From positions 1-16,183 of the forward strand of contig PFWQ01000067.1 in assembly GCA_002791215.1 (NCBI GenBank): a DNA stretch of 16,183 bases, read 5' to 3'. Below, piece by piece: positions 1 through 16,183 of this stretch (positions are counted from its first letter, which is position 1; each line of letters opens with the position of its first letter). A model generated the notes under the pieces. That model did no database searches. It was not told where the DNA came from and worked only from the letters and a program-made list of their open reading frames with translations. The stretch is from a candidate division SR1 bacterium CG_4_9_14_3_um_filter_40_9. GTDB lineage: Bacteria; Patescibacteriota; Gracilibacteria; Absconditabacterales; Absconditicoccaceae. The position numbers and the translations under genes are program-made.

Positions 1-166
1 CCCATTGAGCATCAACCAGTATATCAACATCAAAGGGGCATCAATAATAAAGAGTCTCTTGAACTGGCTGTACGATTATCTTTGCCGCAAAAGTTGGCAT
101 CATAAAAAATCATGTGCATAGCACAATCAATCATAATATACTTTTTTTGACATCAATGGTGAACAT
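1..166 (-). CDS. Cohesin-like secreted protein, N-terminal part only (runs off the window)
   Basis: The first 55 codons are visible from an ATG at 166; the gene continues past base 1. Residues 1-28 form a signal peptide (KK at 7-8, hydrophobic core about 9-26, then AAK), and two of its glycines are TGA codons. The mature start, with CPFDVDILVDAQ at 43-54, matches the cohesin-like protein at 2941-3696 (CPSKIDVLLDTEG) in spacing, Cys position and order: AAK, a beta strand, Cys-Pro, then a strand ending in Asp. It follows the dockerin gene stop by 25 nt, so it is probably co-transcribed. I infer that it is a second cohesin-like, possibly membrane-anchored protein. Most of the domain is not visible, so the family call rests on this short similarity. 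Confidence 0.6.
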
Positions 167-191: not shown

Positions 192-2762
192 CTAATCGAA
201 TATATCAAAGAATGTAGTATTTGCCCTAGTTCTCACTGATCTATTATCAAGATTTGCATTGATTATAGCTATATCAGTACTCTTAATATCTCCATCCGCG
301 TTAACATCTCATGGATGATACTGGACAAAAGGCAATCTGCCACTCAAAGGATCTGCAGTGACTAACTCAGTACCTGTCCATACATGAAATCCGCCAGAAT
401 ATATTTGATATCATCACGTCATCTGAACCCAAGTCAAAATAGCTCATATATCTGATGCATTAACTTCACCATCCTTTACAGAGTTAGTTGTCAGAGTTGA
501 TTGACCAATCTGAAACAATAGCAGATCTCATGCTATCAATCTAGACGCTCATATGGCGGCATCTCACACCATATCTCATGTTTGAGTTACATTGAATATT
601 CTTGCCCCGGTAATAACAAGTCACGTACGAACGGTGCTGACATGACTTTGAGATTCGAAAATCAACGCATACGTGCCACTAGCGAAGCCATAATCAAACG
701 TGTATATGCCAGTCGAACTAGTCTTTATAAGTCATGAGAATACGACATCTCAACTTCGTTGAAGGAATCAATCAGAAGAATTATAGCCGCTTACAAAACT
801 GAATCTTGAGATGACTCATGAATTTGATAATGCATAAGAACTCAAATCTTCACGATTACTAGGTACGGCTATGATGGTATATGTCGCAGCCAATTCGATT
901 CCCGTCACATTCACATACATCTCTCAGGCATTATTTGCCCTATCTCTGTAATAAATATATCCAGTCCGGTTATCATTGAAAACGATATTGGTGTGATACA
1001 GACTATAAGCTCATGAATCATATCATCCTGTGTAGGTCACATTAGGCGTATTGCTTGAACCGCCTACGCCGCTGTATGCGTAGATAATAAATTCATCATC
1101 CATTATGCTATCAGCGTTTCCCGTAGCGAAACCCGTCAAAGTCAATGTTGCACGATGAAGCTGGCCGTTTTCTCCCGTATATGCCAGACTTCAGGTTATT
1201 TCTGTAGTGATTCTATCTATCCGAAACACATCTATATTGAAGTCATAGGTATAATTAGTTCATCCTGTGGCGTAGGTCTGACCATAATTTGGATCCATGC
1301 CCTCCATCGGAATATCTTGGAACGTAACGAATCCAGTCATGTTACCAGTAAAAATCAAGGTTTGATTGATACCGCTGTATCCATTACCTCAGCTTATGTA
1401 TACATTCAAATCTGTGCCAGAGAATCCAACGACATTGGTCATGATAATAATCTCACTTCATGTAAGATGGATTTCTGTATCATCTTTTGTCCAATACTCC
1501 CGACCAGATCTTTGTTCGCTAGAAAATGATGGACCAGCTCACGTCGTATTAAATCCGTTTAAAGCACCAGTCCATTGATAGTCACCAAGTACGATATATG
1601 GGGGCGTATTGTCTATGCCATTGATAGTTATAGGGAACGAAATTACTCACGTATTAAGAATTCACCGATAATTTAGATTGTCGACACCTGTAATAGTTAC
1701 CTGTATAGTCTGATTGGAATCGAGTTGCACTCCTGAGAATCCAACCAACCCTGTAGAGGTTAAAATACAGTCATATCCTCTATCCAAGCGATTCCAGGTC
1801 AATGTATTTCACATCTCTGGAGTTGTCGATATCGGAGTGCAATCGAAGAGATCCGAGCTGTTTAAACTTGACAGAGTGAAACTCGTATATACCAAAGTTC
1901 ATCACGAATAATATCAGCCAGACTCGCCAGTGAATGTGCTAGACTCAAACGATAATCATGATAGACCGACAATGATTGTTCAAGAATTCACTCAATATTG
2001 GTTATCTATATCCAACAAACCGACTCATGTATAATCATTATAATCTGCGTACACAGGGCCATCCCATCGATAATGATAGGTACTATTATAACCGGAAATA
2101 CGTAGACCTGTAAAATCATACACCGTGAAAGAAATTCAAGAAAGATAGGAAACATCTGCTCCGCTACTATATCATGTGTAAATTGGTGCATCAGTATCAG
2201 GGATACAAGGCCTAGCGACGAAGTCATAATATCATGAATTTATCGTATCTAATACATCAATGAAGTTGTTAACGATTCCGGATTGGATATTACTATCATC
2301 ACCATTCCATCCGCCAGAATAATAAAAATCAAGATATCACGTCAATACATTTGCCGTGGTCTGGAAATATCGAGTATAATAAGAAATATCACTTACACCG
2401 GATAAAGGAGTAATAAGATCAGTCCGGTTGAACAACCGATATTTTGAACCAGCAATATAGCTCGCCCATCCAAGATCTATAGCGACTGTGGTAGTACCAG
2501 TTCTGACAAGATAAGTACCATATGTGATTTGGCCCGTTCAATCACCGGTAAATTGCATACTATCTCAGCTATAAATTACTCTCATATCCACGGCCTTAGA
2601 TTCGATACCACTGACATTTACAGAAAAACTTATAGGATAGATGCAACGCATCCCAAAACTTCAGGTAGATGGAGACAAACTCATGCTTCACGCATGAGAA
2701 ATTCACAAGGAAATGAATGTAGACAATATAATTCACCGAAGGAGCCTTCTGATCTGATGCAT
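192..2762 (-). CDS. Large secreted surface protein with C-terminal dockerin and cohesin-like N-terminus
   Basis: 856 aa when TGA is read as Gly; the first real stop is TAG at 192-194. A signal peptide covers residues 1-24 (two Arg pairs, a hydrophobic stretch, then SHA). The next ~100 residues begin like the neighbouring cohesins (strand, Cys, strand, then VDMRVIYSGDSM), so I suspect a divergent cohesin domain. The middle is Ser/Thr/Gly/Tyr-rich beta-sandwich-like sequence with a DNTPP linker typical of Ig-like surface repeats. The C-terminal ~95 residues form a dockerin: a degenerate first calcium loop near 760-771 (KDGEVNASD) and a perfect second loop at 819-830 (DVNADGDIKSTD), each followed by a short helix. 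No catalytic domain is recognisable. The ATG at 2762 has no Shine-Dalgarno but sits 5 nt after a good -10 box. Confidence 0.82.
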
Positions 2763-2767
2763 CACAC

Positions 2768-2795
2768 AATATAATCAATTAAATTTTTTTATCAA
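2768..2795 (-). promoter_or_regulatory. Promoter of the large dockerin gene, probably giving a leaderless mRNA
   Basis: On the minus strand TTGATA (2795-2790) is followed by 16 nt and TATATT (2773-2768), each one mismatch from the sigma-70 consensus. Only 5 nt separate the -10 box from the ATG at 2762, so transcription should start at or within the start codon. No ribosome-binding site is present, which fits a leaderless message. It lies in the 178-nt AT-rich gap after the upstream cohesin gene, so this gene may be transcribed both from here and by read-through. Confidence 0.5.
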
Positions 2796-2940
2796 AAAAG
2801 AAACTTACACTATTCCACATATATCTAACAGAATACTCACAAAATACAAGCAGACCTAGCGAAAATTAAGTTGACAAGAGGAGAGAATTATTAGAAAAGA
2901 CTAATCAAAACAGAGAGAAAATATGTAATAGTGATTTGTA

Positions 2941-3696
2941 TTATTTCTTTCAACTTGGAATAGAAATTGGAGGATTTTTATGAACAAAGCGTCGAGCCAG
3001 AAAACACAATACAAGAGCAAGAAATACAACAATAATCATAGATATATTATGCACCAACCAAGACACAATTGCATCAAGTTTCTCCTGAAAGGGATGCTGA
3101 GAAACAAAAGAAGAATTCTGGATAAGAGTGACTTTACCCAATTGTTGATACAGGACAGTTTGTTTTCATATGATATCTGGACAATCACCAACGCTAATAG
3201 GTAAATACAATTCAGAAGTTTTATCTAGAACGTCAAAGGTCTCTCATCCAGAGACAATAACCACGTTACTATCATCGCTATCCTTATTGGGAACCATTGA
3301 AAATTTCAAATTAAGATACGGAGCGTCTGAAACTAATTTTGGGATCACTGTTATTGTTCCTACTTTACCCACACCATTAAATCACCACCTAGACAATGTA
3401 GACAGCAAGATATATGAGGTTTGAATTCAATCCGCGGACGAAAAATATGGCAAAGTAGAAGTCTTAAAAACGCTTCCATCGATATCAAAGTACTCCCGAC
3501 TCATCACACTTGGATCAAAAAGGATTTTCAAGTCCATAGCAGTAGTCATCTGCCCTTCAGTATCAAGCAGCACGTCAATCTTGGAAGGACAATCATCCAC
3601 CAACGAAGTTTGAGGATATGAAAATGATAGCTTTGCCGCGGAGGAGAAAGTGAAGAAACCAAACATGCATATCGATAAGAATATTACCTTCTTCAT
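2941..3696 (-). CDS. Membrane-anchored cohesin-like protein
   Basis: 251 aa with five TGA codons read as Gly, stop TAA. Residues 1-20 are a signal peptide (MKK, hydrophobic core, SSA). Residues 22-165 resemble a cohesin domain: strand, CPSKIDVLLDTEGQ (36-49), MDLKILFDPSVM (54-65, the usual 'D-L-x-x-x-Y/F-D-P' element), then WGFNGVGKVGTITVI (104-118), matching the conserved G-F-x-G-x-G-x-[IL]-x-T-I turn of cohesins. Cys36 and Cys172 could form a disulfide. A C-terminal transmembrane helix (about 217-234) followed by RR and a short basic tail would anchor it in the membrane with the domain outside. It lies between two dockerin genes, 19 nt after the stop of the upstream one. The cohesin call comes from motif reading, not from a profile search. 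Confidence 0.75.
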
Positions 3697-3715
3697 CTAG
3701 ACAAATGTAGACAGA

Positions 3716-4936
3716 TTAAAAAGATCGAGGAAACTGGTCAGGGGCTGGACTTGGATCATCTCAGGTTAATAGTCAAGCGCCTAAAATATCTTTGAAATAT
3801 CTCCAAAATCCATTCTTCCTAACTGCTTCAAGCATGATTGCCTGATCCTTGGACGTAATATATCCATCCTTATCAAAGTCGTAATTAGTATTCACAGGGC
3901 TAAAATTTACCGTCATATTATAATTTATCAGCGCAAGATCTGATGCTCAGACATAATCATTATTATTGGTATCTCATGCTACAAGCAATGACCTATCACC
4001 GCTGAATCCTTGCACCTCAGGTAAGTCGATCATATATATTTTATTATACCATCAGCTGTCATAGACATAAGAATCAAGTCCGATGAAATTGGTAAAGTCT
4101 AAACTACCAGAAGAACCGGCATCAAATACTCACGTATATCCTGCGGATAAATAGGAAGGTACCTTAATCAACGCCATATATCCTGAACCGTCTTGTGGAA
4201 ACATATACACAAACTCCCCTGTCCCATCAGCAGAAAATCACACCATGCCAGTGGTGGATGAGTTATCCCCAGACATGGCAGAGAAATCATCTCCTATCCA
4301 AAATCACATAAACCCGGTCATAGTGAAAGTTCCATAGCGATACGCAGGCAAAGCTTTGACGAGACATTTTGAACAATTAATATCATCTTTTAGCACCTGG
4401 AGGTCCAAGAAACTTGCTTTCCCCAACGATACGTCAAACGATCCGACATCAATCATACCGGTCTGCAGCTGCATCAGACATCATAAGTCCAATCAGCTGA
4501 AACAGTAATTATAATTAAGGTCGATAGTTTTTGTTACACCAGAATTTGCTGGCACAAGAAATGATCCAGTATCCCATATCAAAGTACTGGCGAAGTCATC
4601 GACTGAATGGACCCTATCACAGGATTTTCTATTTTCTCCATCATTAGTAAGTACTTGATCAAAAAAATCTATCATAATTGTTTGATCTTGGTCCATAGGA
4701 TTCGAAATTGTTACAAAAAAACTTGAGCCATCACCAGCAGTGACGGTCGTCTGCAGATAGGAAGTCTCCCCTGCACCCGTAGAGAATGTAGCATCTGTAT
4801 AGCCAAATCCTTCTAGCTGAGCGAAAGTTACTCCGAAGAATCAAAGAGCGAGGAGAATCACAAATGAGACGCCGACCCCGACCGTTCGGGGTAACGTCGA
4901 TTTTGTCCAGCTCTGCTGAGGAATCTTTTTCTGCAT
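3716..4936 (-). CDS. Secreted dockerin-containing protein
   Basis: 406 aa, with about eleven TGA codons read as Gly and stop TAA. The N-terminus is a long signal peptide (basic residues 3-17, hydrophobic 18-38, likely cleavage after Ala39). The central ~280 residues are secreted beta-rich sequence with four to five Cys (including CSKC) and no recognised domain. Residues 321-380 are a classic type I-like dockerin. Calcium loop 1, DTNNNDYVGASD (322-333), is followed by a LALINYN helix; loop 2, DFDKDGYITSKD (353-364), is followed by QAIMLEAV. Both fit D-x-[ND]-x-[ND]-x5-x-D. The tail is Pro/Asp-rich. It is the first gene of the alternating dockerin/cohesin cluster and is divergent from the gene at 5079. 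An AGG about 8 nt before the ATG may be a weak Shine-Dalgarno. Confidence 0.83.
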
Positions 4937-5078: not shown

Positions 5079-5633
5079 ATGAGGAAATCTCTCCTGCTTG
5101 TAGTAATAACCACAATATGATTGGGCATATATTCTATAATCAAAGCAGCAACTGCAGATTTAACATTAGAAATAATGCCAGGACGCATCGCTATCGATAG
5201 CTCAGGAGCAGTTGATATCTGAGCCATCAGTTCTAACCCGACCACTGGAGAAATCACTACATGATTTTCATCAAACAGCTTTAGGATGATAGATATGAGA
5301 TGATGATCATGATACTATACCACTATTCAATTCGATGATTTGATAAAGTGAGGAGATAGAATAGCAAAAGGATATATCCAATTCAAAACAATCGCCACTC
5401 CAAACACCATTAATGGAGACAATACCGGACAGATAAGATTTGGTAGTGGAATAGGCAATCAATACGGTTACAGCGATCAGCCCATGACATACTTTGTAAG
5501 AAATCCGAATCAATGAACCGGGCTTATAGGGAAGTATGGCGATACTCCGGATATTAAAATCACTATTCCAGCAAACCAGCCATCAGGGGCATACAGAGGG
5601 ACAATATATTACACTTTGTATGATATGGAATAG
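5079..5633 (+). CDS. Secreted WxL-like beta-domain protein
   Basis: 184 aa, with eight TGA codons read as Gly and stop TAG. Residues 1-23 are a signal peptide (MRK, hydrophobic core, IIKA). Two elements recall the WxL domain of Gram-positive surface proteins: MIDMRGGSGYYTTIQFDDL, which parallels the D-x-RG-x-G-x-G-W strand, and the C-terminal IPANQPSGAYRGTIYYTLYD, which parallels the final G-x-Y-x-G-T-x-x-W-x-L strand with Tyr instead of Trp. The middle has an SGIGNQYGYSDQP loop. The family match is tentative, since the defining tryptophans are replaced. Transcription diverges from the dockerin/cohesin cluster, so the two may be co-regulated, and it ends at the hairpin 20 nt downstream. No Shine-Dalgarno is visible; the start follows a run of A. 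Confidence 0.7.
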
Positions 5634-11006: not shown

Positions 11007-11035
11007 TTGACAAACGACATGAATATGTGTATACA
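11007..11035 (+). promoter_or_regulatory. Promoter of the plus-strand surface-protein operon
   Basis: A perfect -35 box TTGACA (11007-11012), a 17-nt spacer and TATACA (11030-11035, 4 of 6). Transcription would start near 11042, leaving an AT-rich leader of about 30 nt without a Shine-Dalgarno before the ATG at 11073. An apparent earlier start at 11007 overlaps the promoter and is rejected. Confidence 0.55.
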
Positions 11036-11072
11036 TAATACAGAACATTTTACATTCTTCATTTTTATTAAA

Positions 11073-12842
11073 ATGAAAAAAACATTAGTGTTTATAGTGA
11101 GCATACTAGCAATCCTAGGGATAGGAAATACAGTTTCAGCTTGCGAAGAGATTGATTTCGACTCATATGGAACGATATGTGTAGATCTCGACAAAGATGG
11201 GAATACTTATGATCTGAACGTAGATTACAGTGATCTTTCTCTTTCTCACACCAATGCATATTTCTATGTGCTTTTGCCGAACAAAAAAACTAGTAAAACC
11301 AGTGGATGATGATTGCTTTCACCAAGGCTTACCGACAATAATTCAGATTTCAGCTATAATTATAAGACATATAACGGATATGACAGCACGACAAGATTCG
11401 TAAAAGTATATGCTATCATCGGGAATGAAGTAAGAAGCACGGAAGTTTATTATGATTTCTCTGATGGAGATCGATCAGATGAAGATAACGAATGAACGTC
11501 AAACGGTGATCTGGATAATTTCTACATCACACTTAGCGACAGCACTCCTAGCCAAAATCAAAAAGTGACTTTAAATATCAAAGCTCGCGACGATGACAAC
11601 GATACCATATCAGACTACAATGGCAGAAACGCGGACATCAAGGTAGAATACAAAACGTCATCAAGTAGCTCATGGAGATTAGTGACGTCGACATATATGA
11701 CGCTCGACGACAAATCACCGAGATTCGCAGATGGAACAGCAAAAACTTACATCACTTTCAAATACAATTATCAATATAGAGTGACCGTTACAGACGATGA
11801 TGAAGATATAGATGACTACAAGATTTTCAGCGTCGGTGACTCATCGTCCTCTACGTCAAATGGGAATCTCGATAATTTCGCAATTTCATTGAGTGATAGT
11901 ACGCCTAGCAAAAATCAGAAAGTGACATTGCACATCAGAGCGCTTGATGATAGCGATGATGTCATTACAGATTATGATGGTAGCAACGCAGATGTTGCCG
12001 TCGAATACAGGACATCCTCAAGCAGCACACGGAGAACAGCTACTTCAACCTATGCATCCATTGATGATACGACTCCTAGCTTTGACAATGGTATCGCCGA
12101 AACAAACATCACCTTCAAATATAATTACGAATACAGAATCACCGTCACTGACGACAGCAAAAACATCGACGATTATAAAGTCTTCGATGTAGGAGGAACT
12201 AGCAGTTCGTCCAACGGAGATCTTGATAATTTCTACGTAACAAAAAGCGACAGCAGTCCCGACATAAATGAATGGGTAGATCTGACAATCAGAGCACGTG
12301 ACAACGATAACAACACATTGACCGACTATACAGATAGCGTAGATTTCACAGTGTATTATAGAACATCTTCTTCAAATGTACGAACTCCTACGACATCATC
12401 AAATTATTATTCCATAGGTTCCAATTATGTTAATGGATATGATTTTTCTTCTTCCGATGACTGATCGGTCACTCTAAATGATTTCATAAAGTTTAGGCAA
12501 AAATTTGAATACAAAGTAGTGGTAGAAGATAGCAACGATGCAAATTTGAATGGATATACAGTCTTCAACCTTCGCAACCAGAATAGTGATGTCGATGGGT
12601 TTACCGCATCGCAATTGGACACAGTGACGAAAATCTATAATGCTCGAAACAGGATGATCAGCAGTCTCAAAAGCGAGTATTCCAGATTAAGAACCAACAA
12701 TACGTGGATAAATATGTCAGATGATTTTTATGAAAACATGAAAGATGTCATAAACAACAAAACAAACAGAGAATTTGATGACTACAGCGACTATCTAGAC
12801 ACCTTCAGAGATCGATACGAATATACCATAGATAATAGATAA
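11073..12842 (+). CDS. Repeat-containing surface lipoprotein
   Basis: 589 aa, with four TGA codons read as Gly and stop TAA. The signal peptide MKKTLVFIVSILAILGIGN is followed by VSAC, which fits a lipobox, so Cys24 may be lipidated. After an N-terminal domain (24-140) come three repeats of about 119 residues starting near 146, 265 and 383. Each opens with G-[DN]-L-DNF and S-D-S-[TS]-P-S/D, then an Ig/invasin-like beta pattern (VTL.I.ARD.D...I.DY), a Ser-rich RTSSS loop and an EYR[IV]TVTDD strand. The repeats are rich in Asp, Ser and Tyr. The C-terminal ~80 residues are a separate helical domain (IYNARNRMISSLKSEYSRLR, then FYENMKDV...FDDY.DYLD). Its likely role is at the cell surface, in adhesion or host contact, by inference from architecture only. 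A membrane protein gene follows 24 nt downstream. Confidence 0.85.
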
Positions 12843-12866: not shown

Positions 12867-13622
12867 ATGATCATCAAAAAAAAATTAGCAAAAAAAACAA
12901 CAGCAAAAAAAGCAGCCCACAGTCTTGCCAAGAAAAGTAATCGTGGCAGACCCAGAAAAGAATTTAAGTCGAAACACAAAAGACTGCAAGAGCAAGCCCT
13001 GATTACGACAACAATCGTAGAACACAGATTGCCGACGCACGAAAGGATTTTTCGTATGCCAAGCAAAGATAAATCGATTTTTTATCTGTTCATTTTCTCA
13101 ATTGCATTGTTCCTTTTCTCACTCGCGATTTCCTTCATCAAAAAAGATGACATCAAACAGTTGCAGGAAATACAGGACGAGAACACTGCAATCACTGCTG
13201 AAACATGAATCGATACAGCAACAGAACAGACAGCGATTACATCAGCCGCACAAACCGTAGAAAATATGTATTGAACTATAAATGCTTGTGTCAATTGTGT
13301 CAATTACCGGGATGTAAGCATAAAAAATAGTAATACAGTTAAGACATATTTCAGTACCAAACGGCTTACAAGATTCCTCGGTGGGATCAAAGACTGATCA
13401 ATCACAATCAGCGATGTACATCAAGAACAAATTAAAGATTATAGTTGGAAAGTAGACTACAAATTAAGCTACACGCTCCTGGATGGTCAGCCATTCGAAG
13501 AAGAACGAAGTGCAACAGTTCTCAGAAAGGATGACGTATACACAATTGCAAGCATCAAATGTGAAACCGCAGGATGTTCAAGAATGCCATTTTTTAATCC
13601 AGGGAAATACGGTATAAAATAA
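12867..13622 (+). CDS. Bitopic membrane protein with basic AT-hook-like tail and external Cys-containing domain
   Basis: 251 aa, with three TGA codons read as Gly and stop TAA. Residues 1-45 are extremely Lys/Arg/Ala-rich (KKLAKKTTAKKAAHSLAKK, like histone H1 tails) and contain RGRPRK at 26-31, the core of an AT-hook. A transmembrane helix spans about 71-90, flanked by KDK and KK; a short charged helical stretch (92-112) follows, then an outer domain (about 125-251) with CVNC and a C....C pair (KCETAGC). The outer domain's strand pattern (WKVDYKLSYTLLDG, SATVLRKDDVYTIASI) suggests an NTF2-like fold, which I infer rather than recognise. The inside-positive charge puts the basic tail in the cytoplasm. 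The stop overlaps the miaA start (TAATG), implying coupled translation. Confidence 0.78.
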
Positions 13623-14575
13623 TGGAAATTGAAAACATAGTCTCACAAGTCAAAGAAGATATCACAGATTTTCATACACATCATCCCAATTGAATCATCA
13701 TCATCCGATGAGCGACAGTCACAGGGAAAAGCAAGCTTTCCATACTTTTGTCGGAATTTTTCGATGTAGAAATCATTTCTGCCGATAGCAGACAGATTTT
13801 TAAGTATATGGATATCGGCACTGATAAAGTGCCTCTAAAAATCCGCAAAAGAATCCCACATCATCAGATAGATACCATCGATCCGGATGAACGATATACG
13901 GCAGGCCAACGACAACACGACACCAAAAGAATCATCAAAGAAATCCAAAAAAGGAAGAAACTTCCTATGATTGTAGGAGGTACAGGACTCTATATCGACA
14001 CCATCTATAAGAATTTCACCATGCCCGATGCCGAACCGAATCTCGCGCTTAGAGAGCAGCTCTATAAACAAGAAGAATCTGACCCATGATCACTGCACAG
14101 AGAGCTTATGAAGGTTGATCCTGAAGAAGCTATAAAGATCCATCCCAAGAGCACAAGATATCTGGTGAGAGCATTAGAAATCTACAAAACGACAGGAGAA
14201 AAAAAATCCGACACTTTTCTGCAACAGGAAGTCGACCAACCAATATTGATGATCGGACTCCGGAGAAACAAAGAAGAAACGAACAGAAGAATCAATATAA
14301 GAATCAAAGAGATGCTGAAATGATGACTCATCGATGAAGTAAAATGACTGCAAGAAAAATGATATATACCAGACCTACAATCCATGCAAGGCATCGGCTA
14401 CAAAGAAACCATCGAATATCTACAGTGAAAATATGACATAAAGAAGCTGGAAGAGAATCTAAAAAAGGCTACGCACCATCTCGCGAAGAAACAAAGAACG
14501 CGATTCCGCAGATACATAGCCGAAGGTAAGGCCTCACCCAAGAAAAATGTGATCTATAAAGTATTTGAATTATAA
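13622..14575 (+). CDS. miaA: tRNA dimethylallyltransferase MiaA
   Basis: 317 aa, with eight TGA codons read as Gly and stop TAA. MiaA transfers a dimethylallyl group to N6 of A37 in tRNAs reading UNN codons, the first step of ms2i6A. Features: P-loop GATVTGKS (30-37, its first Gly is TGA), ISADSRQIFKYMDIGTDK (usual DSxQ-Y-x-x-[ML]-D-I-G-T-x-K), HH-x-ID, YTAGQRQHD, VGGTGLYI, and the C-terminal Q-x-x-x-Q-G-I-GYKE segment followed by a basic helical end (KKQRTRFRR). Length is normal for the family. The start overlaps the upstream stop by 1 nt. Two TGA codons occur back to back in KGGLIDEV. The N-terminal ~20 residues before the P-loop strand are longer than usual. Confidence 0.95.

Positions 14576-14953: not shown

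Positions 14954-16183
<1,230 letters not shown>

Follow-up and report, generated by a model that had tools for sequence, protein, structure and literature searches.

The window analysed here, a stretch of 16,183 bases from a candidate division SR1 bacterium, carries a minus-strand cluster of genes for dockerin-bearing and cohesin-like proteins between positions 4936 and 2. These genes probably encode an ordered, non-cellulosomal, calcium-dependent scaffold at the cell surface. The domains recognised by profile, a hydrophobic anchor segment, a second, paralogous cluster elsewhere in the genome and a recurring order of dockerin gene and then cohesin gene are established. The scaffold is supported by the recurrence of this gene order in the class and in the phylum; binding, choice of partner, attachment to the S-layer and role are inferred.

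The gene cluster and its domains

The window represents the entire contig C27 of a genome (G000) of 922,604 bases in 95 contigs, 88.5% complete. An earlier note on this DNA had claimed that UGA is read as glycine, that the paired C-terminal calcium loops of 3716-4936 and 192-2762 fit dockerins, that 2941-3696 and the frame from 166 have cohesin-like starts, and that 2941-3696 ends in a membrane anchor; each of these claims agrees with the results presented in this section. Regarding the first, decoding of UGA as glycine is supported by alignment of the S-adenosylhomocysteine hydrolase at 14954-16183 with PDB 6gbn, where TGA stands opposite glycine at all 11 in-frame codons. On contig C4 (L001), tentatively placed in the same genome, a long TGA-free frame adjoins a frame with six TGA codons. 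Frames were read with translation table 25, and complete frames are located at the positions claimed, namely 192-2795 (ATG at 2762), 2941-3696 and 3716-4936, together with a frame that stays open from 166 down to base 2. Along the minus strand, 3716-4936 is followed after 19 bases by 2941-3696, after a further 178 bases by 192-2762 and after another 25 bases by the frame that runs from 166 to the contig end. The features are as follows.

3716..4936, minus strand: cargo or tip protein, 406 amino acids, with a signal-like N-terminus, an N-terminal domain common to the first genes of related operons and a C-terminal dockerin
3833..3979, minus strand: dockerin at residues 320-368 of the cargo protein, matched by Dockerin_1, with one canonical and one variant calcium loop
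2941..3696, minus strand: cohesin-like protein with a C-terminal membrane anchor, 251 amino acids (profiles, nine-strand model)
3172..3633, minus strand: cohesin-like domain, approximately residues 22-175 of 2941-3696 (profiles, model)
192..2762, minus strand: adaptor-like protein, 856 amino acids, frame opening at TTG 2795, with an N-terminal cohesin-like domain, a beta-rich middle and a C-terminal split dockerin
2181..2690, minus strand: N-terminal cohesin-like domain of 192-2762 (BLASTP E 2e-12 to L033 12081-12839; profiles)
405..527, minus strand: first dockerin-like half of 192-2762, with a weak profile score, parted from the second half by an insert
204..323, minus strand: second dockerin-like half of 192-2762 (Dockerin_1 E 1.3e-3; profiles)
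2..166, minus strand: start of a further secreted cohesin-like protein, its frame cut by the contig end (BLASTP, profiles)

The dockerin motif consists of two calcium-loop repeats of the form D-x-[ND]-x-D-G...D, and in both 3716-4936 and 192-2762 one loop is canonical and the other departs from this pattern. Against Dockerin_1 (PF00404, curated cut-off 22.9 bits), 3716-4936 displayed E 5.6e-4 and 20.5 bits at residues 320-368 in the protein scan, which is under the cut-off, and 24.4 bits in the six-frame genome search, which is over it. For 192-2762, the protein scan gave 19.4 bits at residues 817-853, with the E-value listed above, and the genome search 20.2 bits, both under the cut-off. When the own genome was left out of profile training, the dockerin of 3716-4936 reached 12.3 bits, compared with 6.3 bits for the best of 1200 shuffled copies drawn from six proteins, which suggests moderate support for this dockerin above the shuffles. 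A search of PDB sequences with the same protein returned a best E of 0.063; its three best matches (E 0.063 or worse), all to MazF entries, are regarded as chance, and next in the ranking came dockerin-bearing enzymes at E 1.1 and 1.2.

The cohesin-like domains were recognised by a family profile of 38 rows, trained without the whole taxonomic family of the window genome. It gave E 4e-20 for 2941-3696, E 4e-5 for the N-terminus of 192-2762 and E 2.5e-5 for the truncated 166-2 frame, the best shuffle scoring 7.4 bits. It should be noted that the training segments were delimited by a profile that included the own sequences, and their limits, unlike the rows, are thus partly dependent. The putative domain at the start of 192-2762 had been missed by the earlier note and is an addition to it. 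At least seven loci were recognised in the same frame by both the family profile and Pfam Cohesin; some relatives in the family exceed the cut-off of the latter, and L060, L083 and L037 have no match to it. In addition, the truncated frame matches L033 12081-12839 at BLASTP E 2e-7. In 2941-3696, a signal-like stretch is located at the N-terminus and a hydrophobic segment begins at approximately residue 207 near the C-terminus; the structural model (predicted local distance difference test, pLDDT, 58.8) comprises nine predicted strands and a helix at 202-240. No match to this protein was found in the PDB sequence search, and none of the five window proteins scanned with NCBIfam was matched. Protein-database searches returned few relatives, namely 2, 1 and 9 proteins, counting the query or a near copy.

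A second cluster is located on contig C86 of the same genome (L033). It contains a dockerin-like protein at 12876-14438, open at the contig end, which matches 3716-4936 at BLASTP E 1e-15 over 217 columns, and a membrane cohesin-like protein at 12081-12839, which is 34% identical to 2941-3696. The first part of a third protein is 37% identical to 192-2762 across 378 columns and, past a masked stretch behind it, there is a frame with a degenerate S-layer-homology pattern; the two frames flanking the masked stretch probably represent an S-layer-tailed cohesin protein. The orientations of C27 and C86 are compatible with one locus, the joining sequence being missing. Elsewhere in the genome, a cohesin-like membrane protein of 407 amino acids is encoded on contig C82 (L053 1353-2576), and no dockerin gene or match was seen beside it in the 10,770 bases of that contig. 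A further Dockerin_1 match (L003, G000:C6:2180-2371; 23.1 bits with neighbours) lies within a long frame of this genome, and a Cohesin match on contig C4 was discarded, its frame being only 47 amino acids long and its score under the cut-off.

Within the window itself, 5079-5633 (plus strand), located ahead of the cluster on the opposite strand, encodes 184 amino acids with a signal-like start; Pfam and NCBIfam scans gave no match, and its 9.0 bits to the cohesin profile are near the shuffle level. A secreted protein of 611 amino acids at 11007-12842 (plus strand) displays approximately three copies of a repeat of about 110 residues, as judged by eye, and had no match in the Pfam scan.

Gene order in relatives

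In three genomes of one genus (G026, G018 and G035), the operon order is a dockerin protein, a cohesin...dockerin protein, a cohesin protein of 580-589 amino acids, a membrane cohesin of 246-266 amino acids and a cohesin protein of approximately 800 amino acids with an S-layer-like tail. The first genes of these operons encode proteins sharing 33-35% identity with 3716-4936, and a shared N-terminal cohesin-like domain begins each operon protein except the cargo. In four further genomes (G044, G347, G338 and G348), a dockerin protein is followed by a cohesin...dockerin protein and then by a cohesin protein, which in three of the four genomes has a membrane segment at its C-terminus. The operons of G031, whose homologue comes from a candidate division SR1 bacterium, and of G061 are without an adaptor. 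Eleven proteins of relatives combine cohesin-like and dockerin modules. When five last-gene proteins were scanned with SLH (PF00395, cut-off 20.8 bits), L037 5482-9261 and L033 10089-11045 gave weak matches of 17.5 and 16.7 bits, three had no match at all and none exceeded the cut-off; eight last-gene tails are mutually alignable.

Other arrangements were also observed. L054 5798-8070 (G295) unites a Lamin Tail Domain, Pfam Cohesin, fn3 and a dockerin, and is followed by a cohesin protein of 249 amino acids with a membrane segment; G276 and G241 contain a similar cohesin...dockerin protein and then a short cohesin protein. In G209, a dockerin-only protein of 104 amino acids with a signal-like N-terminus (L061 6608-6922) is located directly ahead of a cohesin protein with a membrane segment, and many of the dockerin frames listed for family f5 are 104-130 amino acids long.

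Across 353 genomes of the class, Dockerin_1 was found in at least 99, the cohesin-like profile A3 in 43 and Pfam Cohesin in at least 150; A3 was built partly from genomes counted here (G000, G014, G031, G040, G044 and G052, the last recorded as Candidatus Gracilibacteria). At least 21 of the 80 A3 hits have a same-strand dockerin no more than 1 kb upstream, in 16 of the 18 genomes that have both among the matches listed, while approximately 0.03 such pairs are expected under uniform placement. The dockerin is upstream in all A3 pairs within 5 kb among the matches listed. For Pfam Cohesin in the class, at least 18 of 150 listed hits, in 18 genomes, have a dockerin in the same upstream position, and at least nine further hits have a downstream dockerin in a frame of equal length, therefore probably in the same protein, a single frame being seen for G241 and G308. 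No opposite-strand dockerin occurred among the matches listed, with at least 53 genomes carrying both modules. In a phylum sample of 239 genomes, Dockerin_1 was found in at least 85 and Cohesin in 70, a count that still includes the discarded match on C4. Here, at least 26 of 112 Cohesin hits (22 genomes) have a dockerin within 1 kb upstream, four have one downstream and none on the opposite strand, at least 44 genomes holding both modules among the matches listed. The sample overlaps the class; outside the class there are at least 24 upstream hits in 20 genomes. Pairs of a dockerin gene followed by a cohesin gene are therefore far above chance in both class and phylum.

The proposed scaffold and its alternatives

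In the proposed scaffold, the dockerin that ends 3716-4936, as cargo or tip, would plug into a cohesin. The protein 192-2762, which begins with a cohesin-like domain and ends with a dockerin, would act as an adaptor, while 2941-3696 would form a cohesin-like socket held by the cytoplasmic membrane. The cohesin protein with a degenerate S-layer-homology tail, encoded by the last gene of related operons, may hold the assembly in the envelope. The most likely role would be to attach the cell to its partners or prey. Among the four G044-like genomes, dockerins of the same role are 55-75% identical between genomes and those of different roles 32-39% within a genome; the cohesins are 57-64% identical between genomes by role, versus 21-26% between roles. 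Such a pattern would be expected of two matched specificities and an ordered assembly, although orthology alone would look alike. The dedicated non-cellulolytic surface scaffold of the earlier note, in which a dockerin protein would pair with the membrane-anchored cohesin of an adjoining gene, remains the best reading, given the recurrence of the gene order, whereas its simple alternation of dockerin and cohesin genes had to be abandoned, since 192-2762 bears both modules and relatives add the cohesin protein with the S-layer-homology-like tail.

It is unlikely, albeit worthy of consideration, that cohesin-dockerin pairing leads to polymerisation, the adaptors chaining head to tail, the cargo capping the tip and an S-layer-tailed or membrane cohesin serving as the base of a non-covalent, pilus-like fibre. 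In the genus of G026, G018 and G035, the dockerins of cargo and adaptor share 81-88% identity inside one genome and 57-81% across genomes, and the cohesins of the adaptor and of the S-layer-tailed protein share 52-60% inside one genome, compared with 23-33% for other cohesin pairs; with the dockerins so alike and these two cohesins in one class, chaining would be permitted. The adaptor and the last gene also have approximately 570 amino acids in common (45-51% identity in the rows compared), their tails being different. However, the within-genome value of 81.2% in G035 only ties with the highest value between genomes, and cargo and adaptor share 52-59% identity over the 125 residues ahead of the dockerin as well, so that the likeness of the dockerins may arise from a shared duplication. 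Furthermore, the two dockerins of the window differ, and the chaining pattern is therefore not shown by the window genome; in the G044-like genomes, which belong to another family, the low identity between cargo and adaptor dockerins is as for ordered assembly, and the G031 and G061 operons have no adaptor. It is comparably doubtful that Absconditabacteria and related Patescibacteria build a non-covalent, calcium-locked cohesin-dockerin fibre with an S-layer- or membrane-anchored cohesin as its base, an adaptor shaft and a dockerin-only tip in contact with the host or prey. If true, the phylum as a whole would have, in this pairing, an alternative to pili assembled covalently or by chaperones.

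Regarding the ordered scaffold, several results weigh against it. The fold model of the dockerin failed (pLDDT 37.4). Profiles whose training excluded the own genome gave the dockerin halves of 192-2762 scores of 8.6 and 7.7 bits, barely above the best shuffle, so that this split dockerin appears weakly supported, and the dockerin-like tail on C86, at 4.1 bits, is not above the shuffles. Of the profile searches that had been suggested for the window, Dockerin_1 gave matches around its cut-off, whereas Pfam Cohesin (PF00963) matched none of the eight window proteins scanned, 2941-3696 and 192-2762 included, for which reason the term "cohesin-like" is used. The excess of upstream over downstream dockerins partly reflects the location of dockerins at protein ends and of cohesins at protein starts and, among the matches listed, most class genomes with one module have no adjacent pair. 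Moreover, integrin domains match the model of 2941-3696 equally to cohesins, and hhalign of the cohesin-like family to nine Pfam-positive cohesins was weak (probability 2.4).

The last two results, with other Ig-like sandwiches matching as well as integrin, also favour a reading about as improbable as the fibre, in which the beta-sandwich shared by the N-termini serves generally in surface stalks or in S-layer assembly and binds no dockerin, while the C-terminal calcium loops do no more than stabilise the tail or bind another partner. Such a domain would suit the start of every non-cargo protein in the G026, G018 and G035 operons, where there are three cohesin classes for one dockerin type. 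It is opposed by a dockerin adjacency far above chance, by the seven loci that both profiles recognise in frame and by the 11 relatives' proteins that hold both modules. A reduced cellulosome-like complex of polysaccharide enzymes is very improbable: these modules are best known from cellulosomes (PMC9012536), and one relative's anchored cohesin protein (L034 7119-10295, G040) matches an alpha/beta-hydrolase weakly (E 5e-4, under the cut-off), but no glycoside hydrolase or carbohydrate-binding family occurs in the Pfam matches of eight window proteins, as the earlier note had stated of glycoside hydrolases for the complete proteins, or in those of another 30 proteins, 29 of them belonging to relatives and one to C86. 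A cellulosome has glycoside hydrolases that bear dockerins and a scaffoldin with several cohesins; by Pfam and the profiles, the dockerin proteins of the window have no enzyme domain, and there is one cohesin-like domain per protein.

Relation to known systems

Clostridial cellulosomes contain adaptor and anchoring scaffoldins. The scaffold proposed here resembles them in its dockerin cargo, its proteins with both cohesin and dockerin, its anchoring cohesins and its S-layer-homology-like tail; it differs in that no enzymes or carbohydrate-binding modules were found, in the single cohesin-like domain per window protein and in a cohesin that has diverged past recognition by Pfam. Dockerins and cohesins outside cellulosomes are already known. 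The accessible part of PMC9012536 describes non-cellulolytic anaerobic methanotrophic (ANME) archaea in which dockerin and cohesin occur together in proteins, as here. It differs in reporting as many as five cohesins alongside a dockerin and substrate-binding-protein cargo and, in that part, describes no conserved pairing of neighbouring genes. Dockerins have also been reported on a giant protein of Omnitrophota (PMC10066038) and in an essential protein of a Saccharibacterium (PMC10633639). According to the accessible portions of both papers, these bacteria are likewise small and host-dependent, and the proteins belong to the envelope or resemble adhesins, the authors having suggested adhesin or glycan binding; unlike here, no cohesin partner is named in those portions. 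In the literature covered, from which subscription papers were largely absent, no account of dockerin-cohesin gene pairing in Patescibacteria was found.

The means by which host-dependent Patescibacteria attach are poorly understood. A plug-and-socket gene pair that recurs, and the cohesin side of which lies beyond the reach of Pfam in this genome, offers a surface system amenable to testing, and in a genetically tractable Saccharibacterium a protein with a dockerin domain has been reported as essential (PMC10633639). The scaffold would carry cohesin-dockerin biology far beyond cellulose.

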